Part shown: positions 16,081-51,378 of the stretch, piece by piece
Layout: each line of letters begins with the position of its first letter
How positions within the stretch are numbered: position 1 is the stretch's first letter
Assembly (NCBI RefSeq): GCF_002900975.1
Contig: NZ_PJON01000004.1
Coordinates: 248,001 to 312,000 of the forward strand
Reading direction: 5' to 3'
Source of the DNA: Tabrizicola aquatica
GTDB lineage: Bacteria; Pseudomonadota; Alphaproteobacteria; Rhodobacterales; Rhodobacteraceae
DNA length: 64,000 nt
Notes under the pieces: generated by a model
Databases searched by the model: none
What the model was told of the DNA's origin: nothing
What the model saw: the letters and a program-made list of their open reading frames with translations, nothing else
Translations under genes and position numbers: made by a program

Positions 16081-16166
16081 GGGGCGGTGGGCGAAGCGCC
16101 CACCCTACGCCCATGCGTTGACCCGCCTTGGCGCGGGCGTAGGGTGGGCAATTTGCCCACCCTTGG
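16081..16166. repeat. GTAGGGTGGGC hairpin repeats (two copies)
   Basis: GGTGGGCGAAGCGCCCACC followed by CTACGCCC, then a spacer and GGGCGTAGGGTGGGCAATTTGCCCACCC. Each is a hairpin, and the two also pair with each other. They fill the gap between convergent znuA and the PfkB-type kinase and may serve as a two-way terminator, although no long T-run follows. Relatives are at 51201-51232 and 51345-51378; a variant is inside cobN. Confidence 0.8.
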
Positions 16167-41634: not shown

Positions 41635-41686
41635 GGGGCCAAGACTTTTCGAAAAGTCTTGCAAAATCCTTCGAAGGATTTTGGCC
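41635..41686. repeat. Double-hairpin repeat, copy 2
   Basis: Perfect palindromes at 41641-41660 (AAGACTTTTC...) and 41662-41683 (CAAAATCCTTC...), flanked by GGGGCC and GGCCC. It lies between the convergent cobK and cobJ genes and has the same design as 315-363. Here it may serve as a two-way terminator. Confidence 0.8.
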
Positions 41687-45077: not shown

Positions 45078-48000
45078 TCATGCAGCACCGTCCAGCCTTG
45101 CGGCGATGGAGTTGCGGCGGGTCTGCCAAAGGCCGGCGTCGCGAAGGCGGCGGAAAAGGTCTTCCATTGCCGCGAGGGCGGCGGGATTTTCGCGCTGGAG
45201 GAACGCGCGGACCTCGTCACGGCCAAGGGTGGCATCGTGGTAGAGGTCGAAGAGATGCGGCGGGACAACCTGGGCCAGGTGGGCGAAGGCGGCCATGTGG
45301 TCAAGCGTGGCGGCGATCTCGGCGGCGCCACGGAAGCCGTGGTTCATCATGCCATCGGCCCAGAGCGGGTTCGCGGCGCGGGCGCGGACGGTGCGGGCGA
45401 TTTCCTCGGTCAGGGTGCGGGCACGGGGGTCGTCGGGGCGGGTGGCGTCAAGGTGGTAGAGGGCGGGTTGCGCCCCGCCCAGCTTGGCGACGGCGGCGGC
45501 GAAACCGGCCTCGTGCGCGGCGTAGTCAGCGGCGATGAGGACGTCGGTTTCGGGCAGGTCCTGGGCGTGGACGAAGCTGTCGGCGGCAAGGAGGCGCTGT
45601 TCCAGGACGGCGCGGGCCTCGTGCGACTGGCCGTCGGGGCCGATGGCCCAGCTGGAGGCGTTCAGCCAGGCTTCGCCAGCGGCGGCGCGCGCCTCGGCGG
45701 TGAAGGTGTCGGCGGCGGTGCCCATTCCAAGGCCGTACAGGCCGGGCTTGGGGCCAAACACACGGGATTGCCGCGCGGCATAGGGGTTGTCCTCGGCGGC
45801 CTCGTCGCGTTGGCTCAGGGCTTCGGCCCCGGCTTCGAAAAGCTGGGCGAGGGTCGGAAAGACGTCGCGGAAAAGGCCGGAGACGCGCAGGGTGACGTCG
45901 ATCCTGGGGCGGCCAAGGATCGCGAGGGGCAGGATCTCGAAGCCCGACACGCGGGCGGACCCGTCGTCCCATTTGGGCGCAAGACCGGCGAGGTGAAGGG
46001 CCATGGCGAATTCCTCGCCCGCCGTACGCATGGTGGCGCTGCCCCAGAGGTCCACCACCAGCCCGCGCGGGTAGTCGCCATGGTCCTGCAGGTGGCGGCG
46101 GATTAGTTCTTCGGCCAGCTTGACCCCCTGAGCGTGGGCGTTGCGCGAGGGGACGGCGCGGGGGTCGACGGAATAGAGGTTGCGGCCGGTTGGCAGCACG
46201 TCGGAGCGGCCCCGGTTAGGCGATCCTGCCGGGCCGGGGCGGACATGGTGGCCGTTCAGGGCGGTGAGGAGGCCGTCGCGCTCTCCTGCCCCGTGGCCGA
46301 AGATGTGCAGGCCGTGGCCGAACTGGCTTTCCTTCAGGTCGCAGACGAAACGGTCGATGCGGGTGATCGCCTCGGCGGGGGTGGCGTCCGGGGCGAGACC
46401 AAGGTCGGCGGTGACGCCGGAGGCTGCGGCCTCGTCCCGGATGCTGGCGACCAGCCGGCTGCGTCGGGCGGGGTCAAGGCCGTCGGCGGTGGAATATTCG
46501 TCCAGCAGACGCTCAAGCCGCAGGAGTTCGGGGGGCGTCGCACTGGCGACCATCGGTGGTGGCAGGTGGCCGAGGGTGACGGCACCGATGCGGCGCTTGG
46601 CCTGGGCGGCCTCTCCCGGATCGTTGACGATGAACGGGTAGATGACCGGGGTGGGGCCGATCAGAACCTCGGGCCAGCAGGTATCGGACAGGGCGACGGA
46701 TTTGCCCGGCAGCCATTCCAGCGTGCCGTGCGCACCCATGTGGATCAGGGCGTGAACCCCCTGCGCACGAAGCCAGAGGTAGAACGCGACATAGCCGTGG
46801 CGTGGCGTGCGCGAGAGGTCGTGATAGTCGCCGTCGCGGGTCGCCACTTCGCCGCGTTCGGGTTGCAGGGCGATGAGTGCGTGGCCACGCCGGGTTGCGG
46901 GGAAGTGGAAGTGGCCGTCCTTGACCAAGGGGTCGGCGGCGGGGTCGCCCCAGGCTTCGGTCAGGGTCTGGCGGAGGAGAGATGGCAGGGTTTCCAGCGC
47001 CGTCTGGTAGTCGGCCAGCGACCAGCTCAGGGATGCGGTCAGGGCTTCCGGCAGCGGGGTGCCCGGGGTGATGGCATAGCCTTCGGTTGTCAGGGTCGTC
47101 AGCAGCGCCTCGGTCGAGGCCAGGGCATCAAGGCCGACGGCATGGGCCATCTGGTGCGTGCGGCCGGGGTAGGTGGAGAGGACCACCGCCAATTGCCGGT
47201 CCCGCGCGGGGGTAGCGGCCAGACGGTGCCAGTGGACGATGCGATCGACAACGGCCTGGATGCGTGCGGCATCCGCGCGATGGGCGAAGCGCGAGAATTG
47301 CAGATCGGGGTGGCGCTTGCCCGGGGATTTGTGGCTGACGATGCCGGCGAAGAGGCGACCGTCAACCTCGGGCAGCACGACATGCATTGCGAGGTCGGCG
47401 GGCGACAGGCCCCGGTCCGACGTCGCCCAGTCCCGGCGCCGGGCGGTGGACAGCGCGACCTGGAACACGGGGCATTGCGCCGCATCGAACGGGGTCGCAC
47501 CGGTGTCGGAGCGGGCCGAGAAGGCGGTGGCGTTGATGATGGCGACCGGTGGGTTCTGCGCCAGGTGGGTCGAAAGCCAGTCAGCGACCCCGGGGGCCTT
47601 GAGGCTGGGGGCGAAGGCACCGTAGGCGGCAAAGCCTTCCGCGCGAAGGGCGTGAATCAAGGCGTCTACCGGCGCGGTATCGCCCGAGGTCAGGTAGCTT
47701 CGGTAGAAGGTGACGAGAACCGGGCCTCTGGACTGCTGGATGGTCGTCGAGAGACCCCGTCCCGGGCTTGACCCGGGACCTCCAGCCGCAAACGCCCCGC
47801 CCGGCTCGGGAAGAGGCCCCGGGTCAAGCCCGGGACGGGTGATCCTGACGTCCAGCGACGGAATCACGCCCCGTTCGGGATCGTAGAATCCCATCTGCGG
47901 CACGGTCTTGTCGCCCATGACCGGGGCTGCATAGATCCCGGCGGCCAAGGCCAGCTGCGCCAGCGCCGCGTGGGCCGCGACGGCCCCACCCTCGTCGCAC

Positions 48001-48434
48001 AGCGCCTGCAGGCGGCGCAGGGTAGAGACAGGAAGCGTGGAAAGTTCGTCCAGGCGGGGGTCGGGGCGGCCATCGGCAGGCAGGATCGCCAGCGCAGTGC
48101 CCTGACGCCGGGCCAGGTCCTGCAACGTGGCAAGGCCGTAGGGCCAGTAGGCCTCGCCCCCGATCAGTCGGACCAGGATCGCCTTTGCGCCCGAGAGGGT
48201 TCGTTCGGCGTAGGTATCGACCGAAATCGGGTGCTTCAGCGCGATGATATTGGCAAGCCGCACCGTAGGGTGCGTGATATCACGCACCCTACACATGCGC
48301 TCATATCCCGCGGTGAAGGCACCAAGGTCGCTGTCCGAGAAGCTGAGGACCACCAGATCGGCGGGGTCCTGACCCAGGTCAAACGGGGTTTCGGTTTCCT
48401 CCAGCCCATGGCTTTCGCGAAAGACGACGTGCAT
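45078..48434 (-). CDS. cobN: Cobaltochelatase large subunit CobN
   Basis: A 1118-residue subunit that binds hydrogenobyrinic acid a,c-diamide and inserts cobalt with CobS and CobT, which are not in this window. Typical segments are MHVVFRESHGLEE at the start, HMGAHGTLEWLPGKSVALSD in the core and NPLWADGMMNHGFRGAAEI near the end. The ATG at 48434 has GGAGG before it. Two palindromic elements are inserted in frame (48265-48292 and 47755-47840), adding Gly/Pro-rich and CRVRDITHP-type peptides in the N-terminal third. The frame stays open throughout, so the protein is probably functional. Confidence 0.95.
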   Translation of the reverse strand: MHVVFRESHGLEETETPFDLGQDPADLVVLSFSDSDLGAFTAGYERMCRVRDITHPTVRLANIIALKHPISVDTYAERTLSGAKAILVRLIGGEAYWPYGLATLQDLARRQGTALAILPADGRPDPRLDELSTLPVSTLRRLQALCDEGGAVAAHAALAQLALAAGIYAAPVMGDKTVPQMGFYDPERGVIPSLDVRITRPGLDPGPLPEPGGAFAAGGPGSSPGRGLSTTIQQSRGPVLVTFYRSYLTSGDTAPVDALIHALRAEGFAAYGAFAPSLKAPGVADWLSTHLAQNPPVAIINATAFSARSDTGATPFDAAQCPVFQVALSTARRRDWATSDRGLSPADLAMHVVLPEVDGRLFAGIVSHKSPGKRHPDLQFSRFAHRADAARIQAVVDRIVHWHRLAATPARDRQLAVVLSTYPGRTHQMAHAVGLDALASTEALLTTLTTEGYAITPGTPLPEALTASLSWSLADYQTALETLPSLLRQTLTEAWGDPAADPLVKDGHFHFPATRRGHALIALQPERGEVATRDGDYHDLSRTPRHGYVAFYLWLRAQGVHALIHMGAHGTLEWLPGKSVALSDTCWPEVLIGPTPVIYPFIVNDPGEAAQAKRRIGAVTLGHLPPPMVASATPPELLRLERLLDEYSTADGLDPARRSRLVASIRDEAAASGVTADLGLAPDATPAEAITRIDRFVCDLKESQFGHGLHIFGHGAGERDGLLTALNGHHVRPGPAGSPNRGRSDVLPTGRNLYSVDPRAVPSRNAHAQGVKLAEELIRRHLQDHGDYPRGLVVDLWGSATMRTAGEEFAMALHLAGLAPKWDDGSARVSGFEILPLAILGRPRIDVTLRVSGLFRDVFPTLAQLFEAGAEALSQRDEAAEDNPYAARQSRVFGPKPGLYGLGMGTAADTFTAEARAAAGEAWLNASSWAIGPDGQSHEARAVLEQRLLAADSFVHAQDLPETDVLIAADYAAHEAGFAAAVAKLGGAQPALYHLDATRPDDPRARTLTEEIARTVRARAANPLWADGMMNHGFRGAAEIAATLDHMAAFAHLAQVVPPHLFDLYHDATLGRDEVRAFLQRENPAALAAMEDLFRRLRDAGLWQTRRNSIAARLDGAA
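47755..47840. repeat. In-frame palindromic element 2 inside cobN
   Basis: CCCCGTCCCGGGCTTGACCC at one end is mirrored by GGGTCAAGCCCGGGACGGG at the other, about 86 bases in all. It encodes roughly 28 Gly/Pro-rich residues in CobN, between the VIPSLDV and VLVTFYRSYLTSG segments. Confidence 0.8.
48265..48292. repeat. In-frame palindromic element 1 inside cobN
   Basis: A perfect 28-base palindrome, GTAGGGTGCGTGAT followed by its reverse complement, coding CRVRDITHPT about 60 residues into CobN. It shares the GTAGGGTG head with intergenic hairpins at 16081-16166, 51201-51232 and 51345-51378. Confidence 0.85.
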
Positions 48435-48536
48435 CAGGTCCTCCGCAGCGGGGCGCCCTTCCACCCCAACCCTGCCCCATGGTGAGGAGAGGGAGGTGCC
48501 ATTCGGCCTGGGATGGGTAAGGGATGGCTCACGATG

Positions 48537-51200: not shown

Positions 51201-51232
51201 GCGGGCGTAGGGTGGGTGTGTCCGCCCAGCGC
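51201..51232. repeat. GTAGGGTGGGT repeat, copy near cobO
   Basis: GCGGGCGTAGGGTGGGTGTGTCCGCCCAGC, a hairpin-like relative of the elements at 16081-16166. A similar copy follows 140 bases later at 51345. The intervening DNA has no gene. Confidence 0.65.
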
Positions 51233-51344: not shown

Positions 51345-51378
51345 GGGCGTAGGGTGGGTGTTTCCACCCACCCCGGTC
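51345..51378. repeat. GTAGGGTGGGT repeat, copy before OMP stop
   Basis: CGGGCGTAGGGTGGGTGTTTCCACCCACCC forms a perfect GGGTGG-GTGTTTCC-type stem ending just before the stop of the outer-membrane protein gene, where it could act as a terminator. Confidence 0.7.

Follow-up and report, generated by a model that had tools for sequence, protein, structure and literature searches.

The cobN gene of Tabrizicola aquatica carries a perfect 28-base palindrome in frame, which is probably a symmetric, double-headed, GTAG-tagged REP element of class A (the hairpin class letters A to D are assigned in this analysis), lying at an old REP site in cobN where the core seems to have been exchanged in place. The window, meaning the whole stretch of DNA that was analysed, comprises 64,000 nucleotides of contig NZ_PJON01000004.1. 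To our knowledge it is not settled how REPs spread and are maintained, since insertions for which a clean empty site exists are difficult to find. Two places in this genus, the cobN codon position (27 genomes, at least three hairpin types) and a convergent gene junction (29 genomes), make exchange testable against insertion. On a broader and only tentative reading, a site would be kept for the lifetime of the genus while the identity of the element it holds changes, even within the coding sequence of an enzyme.

The features to which the argument refers are these:

45078 to 48464, minus strand: cobN, cobaltochelatase subunit CobN (NF008973, 1623.7 bits)
48265 to 48292, no strand: probable symmetric class-A GTAG REP unit, a perfect palindrome in frame in cobN
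48265 to 48272, no strand: left head or arm GTAGGGTG, the same in G006, G009, G012, G018 and G025 and altered in several other relatives
48273 to 48284, no strand: core CGTGATATCACG, differing at 7 of 12 bases from the GGCAATACTGCC core of G006, G009, G012 and G025, with 0 of 16 arm bases different
48285 to 48292, no strand: right head or arm CACCCTAC
16086 to 16161, no strand: two GTAGGGTGGGC-type (class B-like) hairpins in inverted orientation, forming a BIME-like unit, also within the window

The CobN frame is open over 1128 amino acids with a family-model score above the cut-off, and its likely start is the ATG at 48434 (MHVVF), which matches the beginning of PDB 9uk9 and of the family model. 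A sequence-only reading of this DNA had described a perfect 28-base palindrome in frame in cobN, and this is upheld: GTAGGGTGCGTGATATCACGCACCCTAC, at 48265–48292, is fully self-complementary and is read as TGT AGG GTG CGT GAT ATC ACG CAC CCT ACG, or CRVRDITHPT, stop-free and with VRLANI next. It is readable inside cobN because stops occur in only one of its three frames. The head recurs within the window, as that reading had also stated, since GTAGGGTG is found in the hairpin pair at 16086–16161 and at 51207 and 51349. No other perfect palindrome with arms of at least 12 bases exists in the window, none of arm 12 or arm 14 arose in 40 Markov-simulated windows, and the expectation is ~0.001 perfect arm-14 palindromes per window, or ~0.07 perfect 28-base ones per genome. 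Origin by chance from codon choice, which has nothing in its favour beyond the peptide being tolerated, was rejected as practically out of the question; it is refuted by this low expected number and by the copies, namely a further exact one in the genome and a repeat family that spans the genus.

The second exact copy of the 28-mer lies at C8:219721 of the T. aquatica genome, with near copies at C6:422393 (1 mismatch) and C1:257000 (3 mismatches). The flanks of the dispersed copies are mutually unrelated and hence the repeat unit is the palindrome itself, from GTAG to CTAC. Symmetric elements of the form GTAGGGTG...CACCCTAC number 14 in the genome (3.87 Mb), compared with 0 for a reversed-pattern control, and comprise seven of type GGGTTGAACCC, two CAATATTG, one CGATATCG, two shorter relatives of these and two CGTGATATCACG. 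Across the genus the symmetric pattern is present in 21 of 32 genomes, class-A units with at most 2 mismatches to the 24-base query GTAGGGTGCGTGATATCACGCACC in 19, and exactly GTAGGGTGCGTGATTTCACGCACC in 13. Nine inverted pairs of class-A units, 94–115 bases apart, were found, together with a few that are closer, and some stand beside genes for the REP-associated tyrosine transposase (RAYT); the cobN copy is single and outside any inverted pair. A short palindromic unit repeated at dispersed places and inverted pairs (dimers) of that unit, both expected of GTAG REPs, are present here, and dispersal with inverted pairing is the anatomy of REP elements and paired REPs. The earlier proposal of a dispersed palindromic element lying in frame in cobN is therefore confirmed by the copies elsewhere in the genome. 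A search for the palindrome in other coding regions was answered in part: copies exist elsewhere, but among the 14 symmetric copies a verified gene was found only across that in cobN. Ten long ORFs spanning symmetric copies at 9 other loci gave Pfam matches in 0 of 10 cases, a count that excludes a 197-aa ORF across the L043 copy as well as the contexts of L043 and L046. Of 10 ORFs whose start or end adjoins a copy, 9 had a Pfam match, and at L042 neither the spanning nor the neighbouring ORF was matched.

An ORF that is presumably mannitol dehydrogenase-like, to judge from its sequence, takes its final residues (KGA) and its TGA stop from a near copy of the palindrome (L004, 1501–1528). In a wider contig collection, from which the records of our own genome are possibly left out, the exact 28-mer is present in 6 stretches, and no CobN was seen among the ORFs inspected, without a profile search, beside these. 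In two of the metagenome-assembled genomes concerned, one labelled Planktotalea (L200, 2560–2587) and one assigned to Pseudomonadota (L203, 1283–1310), the 28-mer follows ORFs with similar C-termini, and so different genera may have this copy in common at one site.

The class to which the palindrome belongs is linked to a transposase. A 168-aa ORF in G017 and G023 directly precedes a class-A REP pair and matches NF047646 (REP-associated tyrosine transposase) with 188.9 bits against a cut-off of 80. With a RAYT of the genus as query, matches were obtained in 28 of 32 genus genomes including our own, which has two such genes, at C6:256977-257441 (47% identity to the query) and C6:517527-518057 (62–64% over two pieces). 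The absence of RAYT suggested by Pfam Y1_Tnp (PF01797), with none in our own genome and two sub-cut-off matches in the genus, was discarded as a failure of sensitivity, given the 28 of 32 found by the genus query. The RAYTs of G017, G023 and G029 are followed by class-A REPs, so that for class A a cognate RAYT flanked by the same REP class is found in sister genomes; in G016, 11 bases separate the exact 28-mer from the matched RAYT end, and in Rhodosalinus it lies ~520 bases from a RAYT. Beside the RAYT genes of our own genome no class-A hairpin, the class of the cobN palindrome, was found; the C6:517527 gene adjoins class-C hairpins, GGTGGGGTT, and the C6:256977 gene falls in a supported clade of 10 rows in the RAYT tree that are flanked by class-B (GGTGGGC) hairpins in 10 of 10 cases. 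The RAYT tree has 37 rows (G025 C346 and others being left out), of which some fit the motifs of two or more classes and six fit none, and in it the class-A rows (G017, G023, G029, G016, Rhodosalinus) do not form one supported clade. RAYTs and hairpins associate by class. At 11 of 12 loci of class-B-type RAYTs, a near-symmetric hairpin precedes the matched start by 26–32 bases; 5 of these hairpins have two intact GTAG heads, and another 3 deviate at a single head base. The symmetric form is hence a regular member of these loci. These upstream hairpins (L149, L152-L157, L162, L164, L165 and L167) are possible autoregulatory sites.

The resemblance to the GTAG REP superfamily, or REPtrons, as set out in the available part of Di Nocera et al. 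2013 (PMC3733652), extends to the GTAG tag, the short hairpin, the inverted pairs, a RAYT beside its cognate REP, placement at gene ends and TAG stops supplied by the element, as well as to in-frame copies in real genes. In the definition given there, the GTAG stands at one end and is unpaired. Unlike such units, the cobN copy is tagged at both ends and fully symmetric over 28 bases, and its GTAG pairs with CTAC at the opposite end. Because its tag is base-paired we file it as a symmetric variant and not as a plain member of the superfamily. Asymmetric units without CTAC, in which the GTAG is unpaired, lie beside RAYTs in G029 (L166) and in G017 and G023.

The cobN site could be read in 27 of 32 genus genomes (none in G002, G008, G015, G017 and G021). 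A strong hairpin (score of at least 8, or the identical 28-mer) is present in 10 of the 27 genomes, with different residues, and a clear hairpin is absent in another 10, among which G003 has a weak one. The expectation that some relatives would have related palindromes at this site was thus borne out, and the orthologues do not all carry the same residues over non-palindromic DNA. At a shared codon position the core is CGTGATATCACG in our own genome (G000) and GGTGATATCACC in G016, where 19 of the 28 palindrome bases, from the middle on, are visible and the contig ends inside the palindrome, as repeats often cause. It is GGCAATACTGCC in G006, G009, G012 and G025, and also in G031 with one arm change; GGCAACTCTGCC in G018, where both arms are as in our own genome and 9 of 12 core bases differ; and GGGCAATA(T/C)TGCCC with altered arms in G013 and G028. 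A GGTTTCCAACC type is found in G022, where the linker is 6 bases shorter and the right head absent, and with further arm changes in G001, G020 and G024, while G004, G029 and G030 have degenerate forms, that of G029 with an extra partial inverted unit. Comparing our own copy with those of five relatives (G006, G009, G012, G018 and G025), all 16 arm bases are identical and 7–9 of 12 core bases differ; arms are altered in G013, G028, G031, G001, G020 and G024. The 28-mers of G006, G009, G012 and G025 each recur elsewhere in their own respective genome. In the most extreme pair, G012 and G025, the linker is identical at 36 of 36 bases, against 81.7% for the flanks and 57.4% for third positions. 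The hairpin score by itself is not proof, because in the outgroup G065 this segment forms an unrelated hairpin that scores 9.

Other copies of the element lie at gene ends, where REP hairpins may end transcription, and one might imagine that the palindrome is regulatory, an operator, terminator or uptake sequence located in cobN by coincidence. We consider this very improbable: the species-specific cores speak against one binding protein, there are only 14 symmetric copies in 3.87 Mb, and the palindrome lies deep in the coding region and lacks a T-run.

The length of the linker bears on how the element came to be in cobN. The palindrome had been said to add a CRVRDITHP-like peptide, and the linker of T. 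aquatica CobN is indeed longer, but by 4 codons relative to the shortest outgroup linkers, not by 9–10. The remaining outgroup linkers differ by 1 to 3 codons and one sister-genus row is equally long, in a comparison that captured the outgroups G084, G042, G056 and G078 only partly and missed G077. The solved CobN structure 9uk9 has 5 residues fewer at the palindrome site. Aligning CobN of close relatives, the check once proposed for insertion, did reveal relatives with and without related palindromes, but a clean 28-base insertion was sought in relatives and not found, the outgroup gap being at most 12 bases. Several genus members without the palindrome still have a longer linker, as is often so, and the sister-genus row G053 has a full-length linker with a similar peptide, RAGNAATPT. 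With outgroup linkers no more than 12 bases shorter (not 28–30), and with palindrome-free members that have longer linkers, an empty site is undefinable; given these lengths and the G053 peptide, the first arrival of the element in cobN is old and blurred.

Several independent insertions at one favoured site, whether or not brought about by RAYT, would account for different hairpins at one place without exchange, and would accord with the frequency of RAYTs in the genus and with the extra partial inverted unit of G029. We regard this as rather unlikely, since the codon phase is constant and the arm positions are reused in six genomes, the length relative to outgroups is at most +12 and not +28, and the orientation of the GGCAATACTGCC core is identical in G006, G009, G012 and G025. 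Somewhat less probable still is an ancient linker that evolved in place without any exchange with other REP copies, its quasi-palindrome being maintained or made perfect through repair templated by the hairpin or through selection for an mRNA or DNA hairpin in cobN. Changes in G013 and G028, and weakly in G003, look compensatory, the RNA of this stretch folds strongly (z -4.91), and the G053 peptide is similar; against this, several cores are identical to dispersed repeats, the differences between G000 and G009 fall on 7 of 12 core bases and on none of the 16 arm bases, and the hairpin is evidently not needed, as 10 of 27 genus genomes have no clear one. Paired changes were counted in 8 distinct rows (11 genomes), all of the 28-base length class. 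Both sides had changed in 6 of 13 pairs, a value reached in 3 of 500 shuffles, and 89.4% of cells were paired, a share that drops to 33–51% in sliding controls; further pair types were reached in 20 of 500 shuffles and the covariation score in 0 of 500. Since block replacement of the core contributes to these counts, they are no independent proof of selection on the hairpin.

We favour exchange of the core between REP classes in different species. A CobN tree of 41 rows (27 genus, 14 outgroup), computed with the linker excluded, places G012 and G016 as sisters (support 97), and these differ in core. The three core types require at least 5 changes on this tree, a minimum that is only indicative because many forks are weak (15 of 38 are open). 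The tree left out L034, L076, L077 and L081-L084; L027 and L086 duplicate rows that were used.

The second exact copy, at C8:219721, offers a comparison outside a coding sequence. It ends a gene that we take from its sequence to be folD, and the stop TAG lies within the GTAG head. The class of hairpin turns over at this convergent junction, which in 29 genus genomes (L169-L197) holds class A in 3, B in 5, C in 2, D in 8, an AT-rich hairpin in 7 and none, meaning no match to the class motifs used here, in 4. For classes A, C and D the TAG stop is at the head position in 12 of 13 cases, with GTAG intact in only 3 of 13; for class B, in which the units start some bases further downstream, this is so in 0 of 5 cases, and for the AT-rich hairpins in 0 of 7. 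A TAG stop alone is no mark of a REP, because 3 of the 4 junctions without a match likewise end in TAG. The right-hand head is retained in 16 of 18 class A–D cases. The folD junction tends to retain a hairpin while its class changes.

On the reading that we prefer, the class-A palindrome would be a repeat that is non-autonomous and of a kind whose movement is ascribed to RAYT transposases, and the place that it occupies in cobN would be an old REP site, within a linker tolerant of length changes. Its first arrival would have been an insertion, and the peptide that it encodes is presumably neutral. The core would since have been exchanged, and the likeliest routes are either that dispersed copies served as templates, through gene conversion or template switching at shared heads, or that a RAYT acted on the resident element. 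No donor or intermediate for the exchange of cores was seen, and a different core could also have come in with a longer stretch of cobN, acquired by recombination from relatives outside the sample. As relatives carry different hairpins at the matching place in cobN, the comparison suggests that elements of a mobile kind are exchangeable inside a working gene. That REPs turn over in this way more generally, by core replacement at one or both retained GTAG heads, whether in a gene or at a convergent junction, is a proposal we advance only tentatively.

Published precedents cover parts of this picture. Within the available text of PMC3733652, in-gene GTAG and CGTC REPs and TAG stops derived from GTAG REPs are already reported, and recB of two Xanthomonas species has different REPs at about the same site, to which the cobN site is comparable; it differs from what is described there in that, within a single genus, one codon position is occupied by several hairpin types. 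Nunvar et al. 2013 (PMC3686654, as far as the accessible portion goes) describe orthologous RAYTs with different flanking REP classes in related strains. As in those orthogroups, the REP class changes at a conserved chromosomal place; unlike them, the places here are a host coding site and a convergent gene junction and not the flanks of a RAYT. Apart from the recB remark in PMC3733652, no report of exchange of REP cores at a host coding site was found, in a search that left subscription journals mostly uncovered. As far as this search shows, the symmetric double-headed unit and the turnover of hairpins in many species at one codon position are new.

The sequence-only reading had likened the palindrome to the RPE elements of Rickettsia. 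That likeness is only partial, the nearest known kind being the RAYT-linked GTAG REP superfamily. Like RPE as described in the accessible part of PMC3733652, the cobN palindrome is a palindromic repeat read in frame in a gene for a likely functional protein. According to the same source, RPE belong with the CGTC-tagged repeats (CGTC at one end), a superfamily for which no linked transposase was found, and the palindrome ends in GTAG and CTAC. A second insert in cobN does resemble that superfamily, and its parts are as follows:

47721 to 47897, minus strand: second variable CobN linker with a different REP type, 59 aa in our own genome and 20 aa in 8 of 22 genus genomes
47818 to 47837, minus strand: CGTC-tagged REP CGTCCCGGGCTTGACCCGGG, first unit of an inverted pair
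47758 to 47777, plus strand: second, inverted CGTC REP unit, an exact copy on the opposite strand

The comparison with RPE fits better this CGTC REP dimer at 47758–47837, an element separate from the palindrome and absent from the sequence-only reading. The unit has 4 exact matches in the genome, two in cobN and the others at C1:603503 and C5:496627, and 3 more with 1–2 mismatches. The CGTC end, stem-loop, inverted pair and dispersal are those of CGTC REPs as given in the available part of PMC3733652, and all are found in this linker. The pattern was read in 22 of 27 genomes (G012, G014, G003, G018 and G006 being missed): G001, G007 and G011 have a similar peptide, TRPGLDPGP...GPGSSPGR, and elsewhere in the genus a different sequence encodes HPLPTEGEG or GRDGEGG. 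Because other species hold other sequences or nothing here, the linker gives the impression of a second landing site within the same gene. CobN is thus an enzyme whose linkers carry in-frame hairpins of both REP superfamilies.

Two further observations concern the window at large. Perfect palindromes of arm 11 occur at position 341 and at 41640–41683, one of which is CAAAATCCTTCGAAGGATTTTG. Two GTAGGGTGGGTGT heads, at 51207–51220 and 51349–51362, lie ~140 bases apart and are possibly further REP copies.
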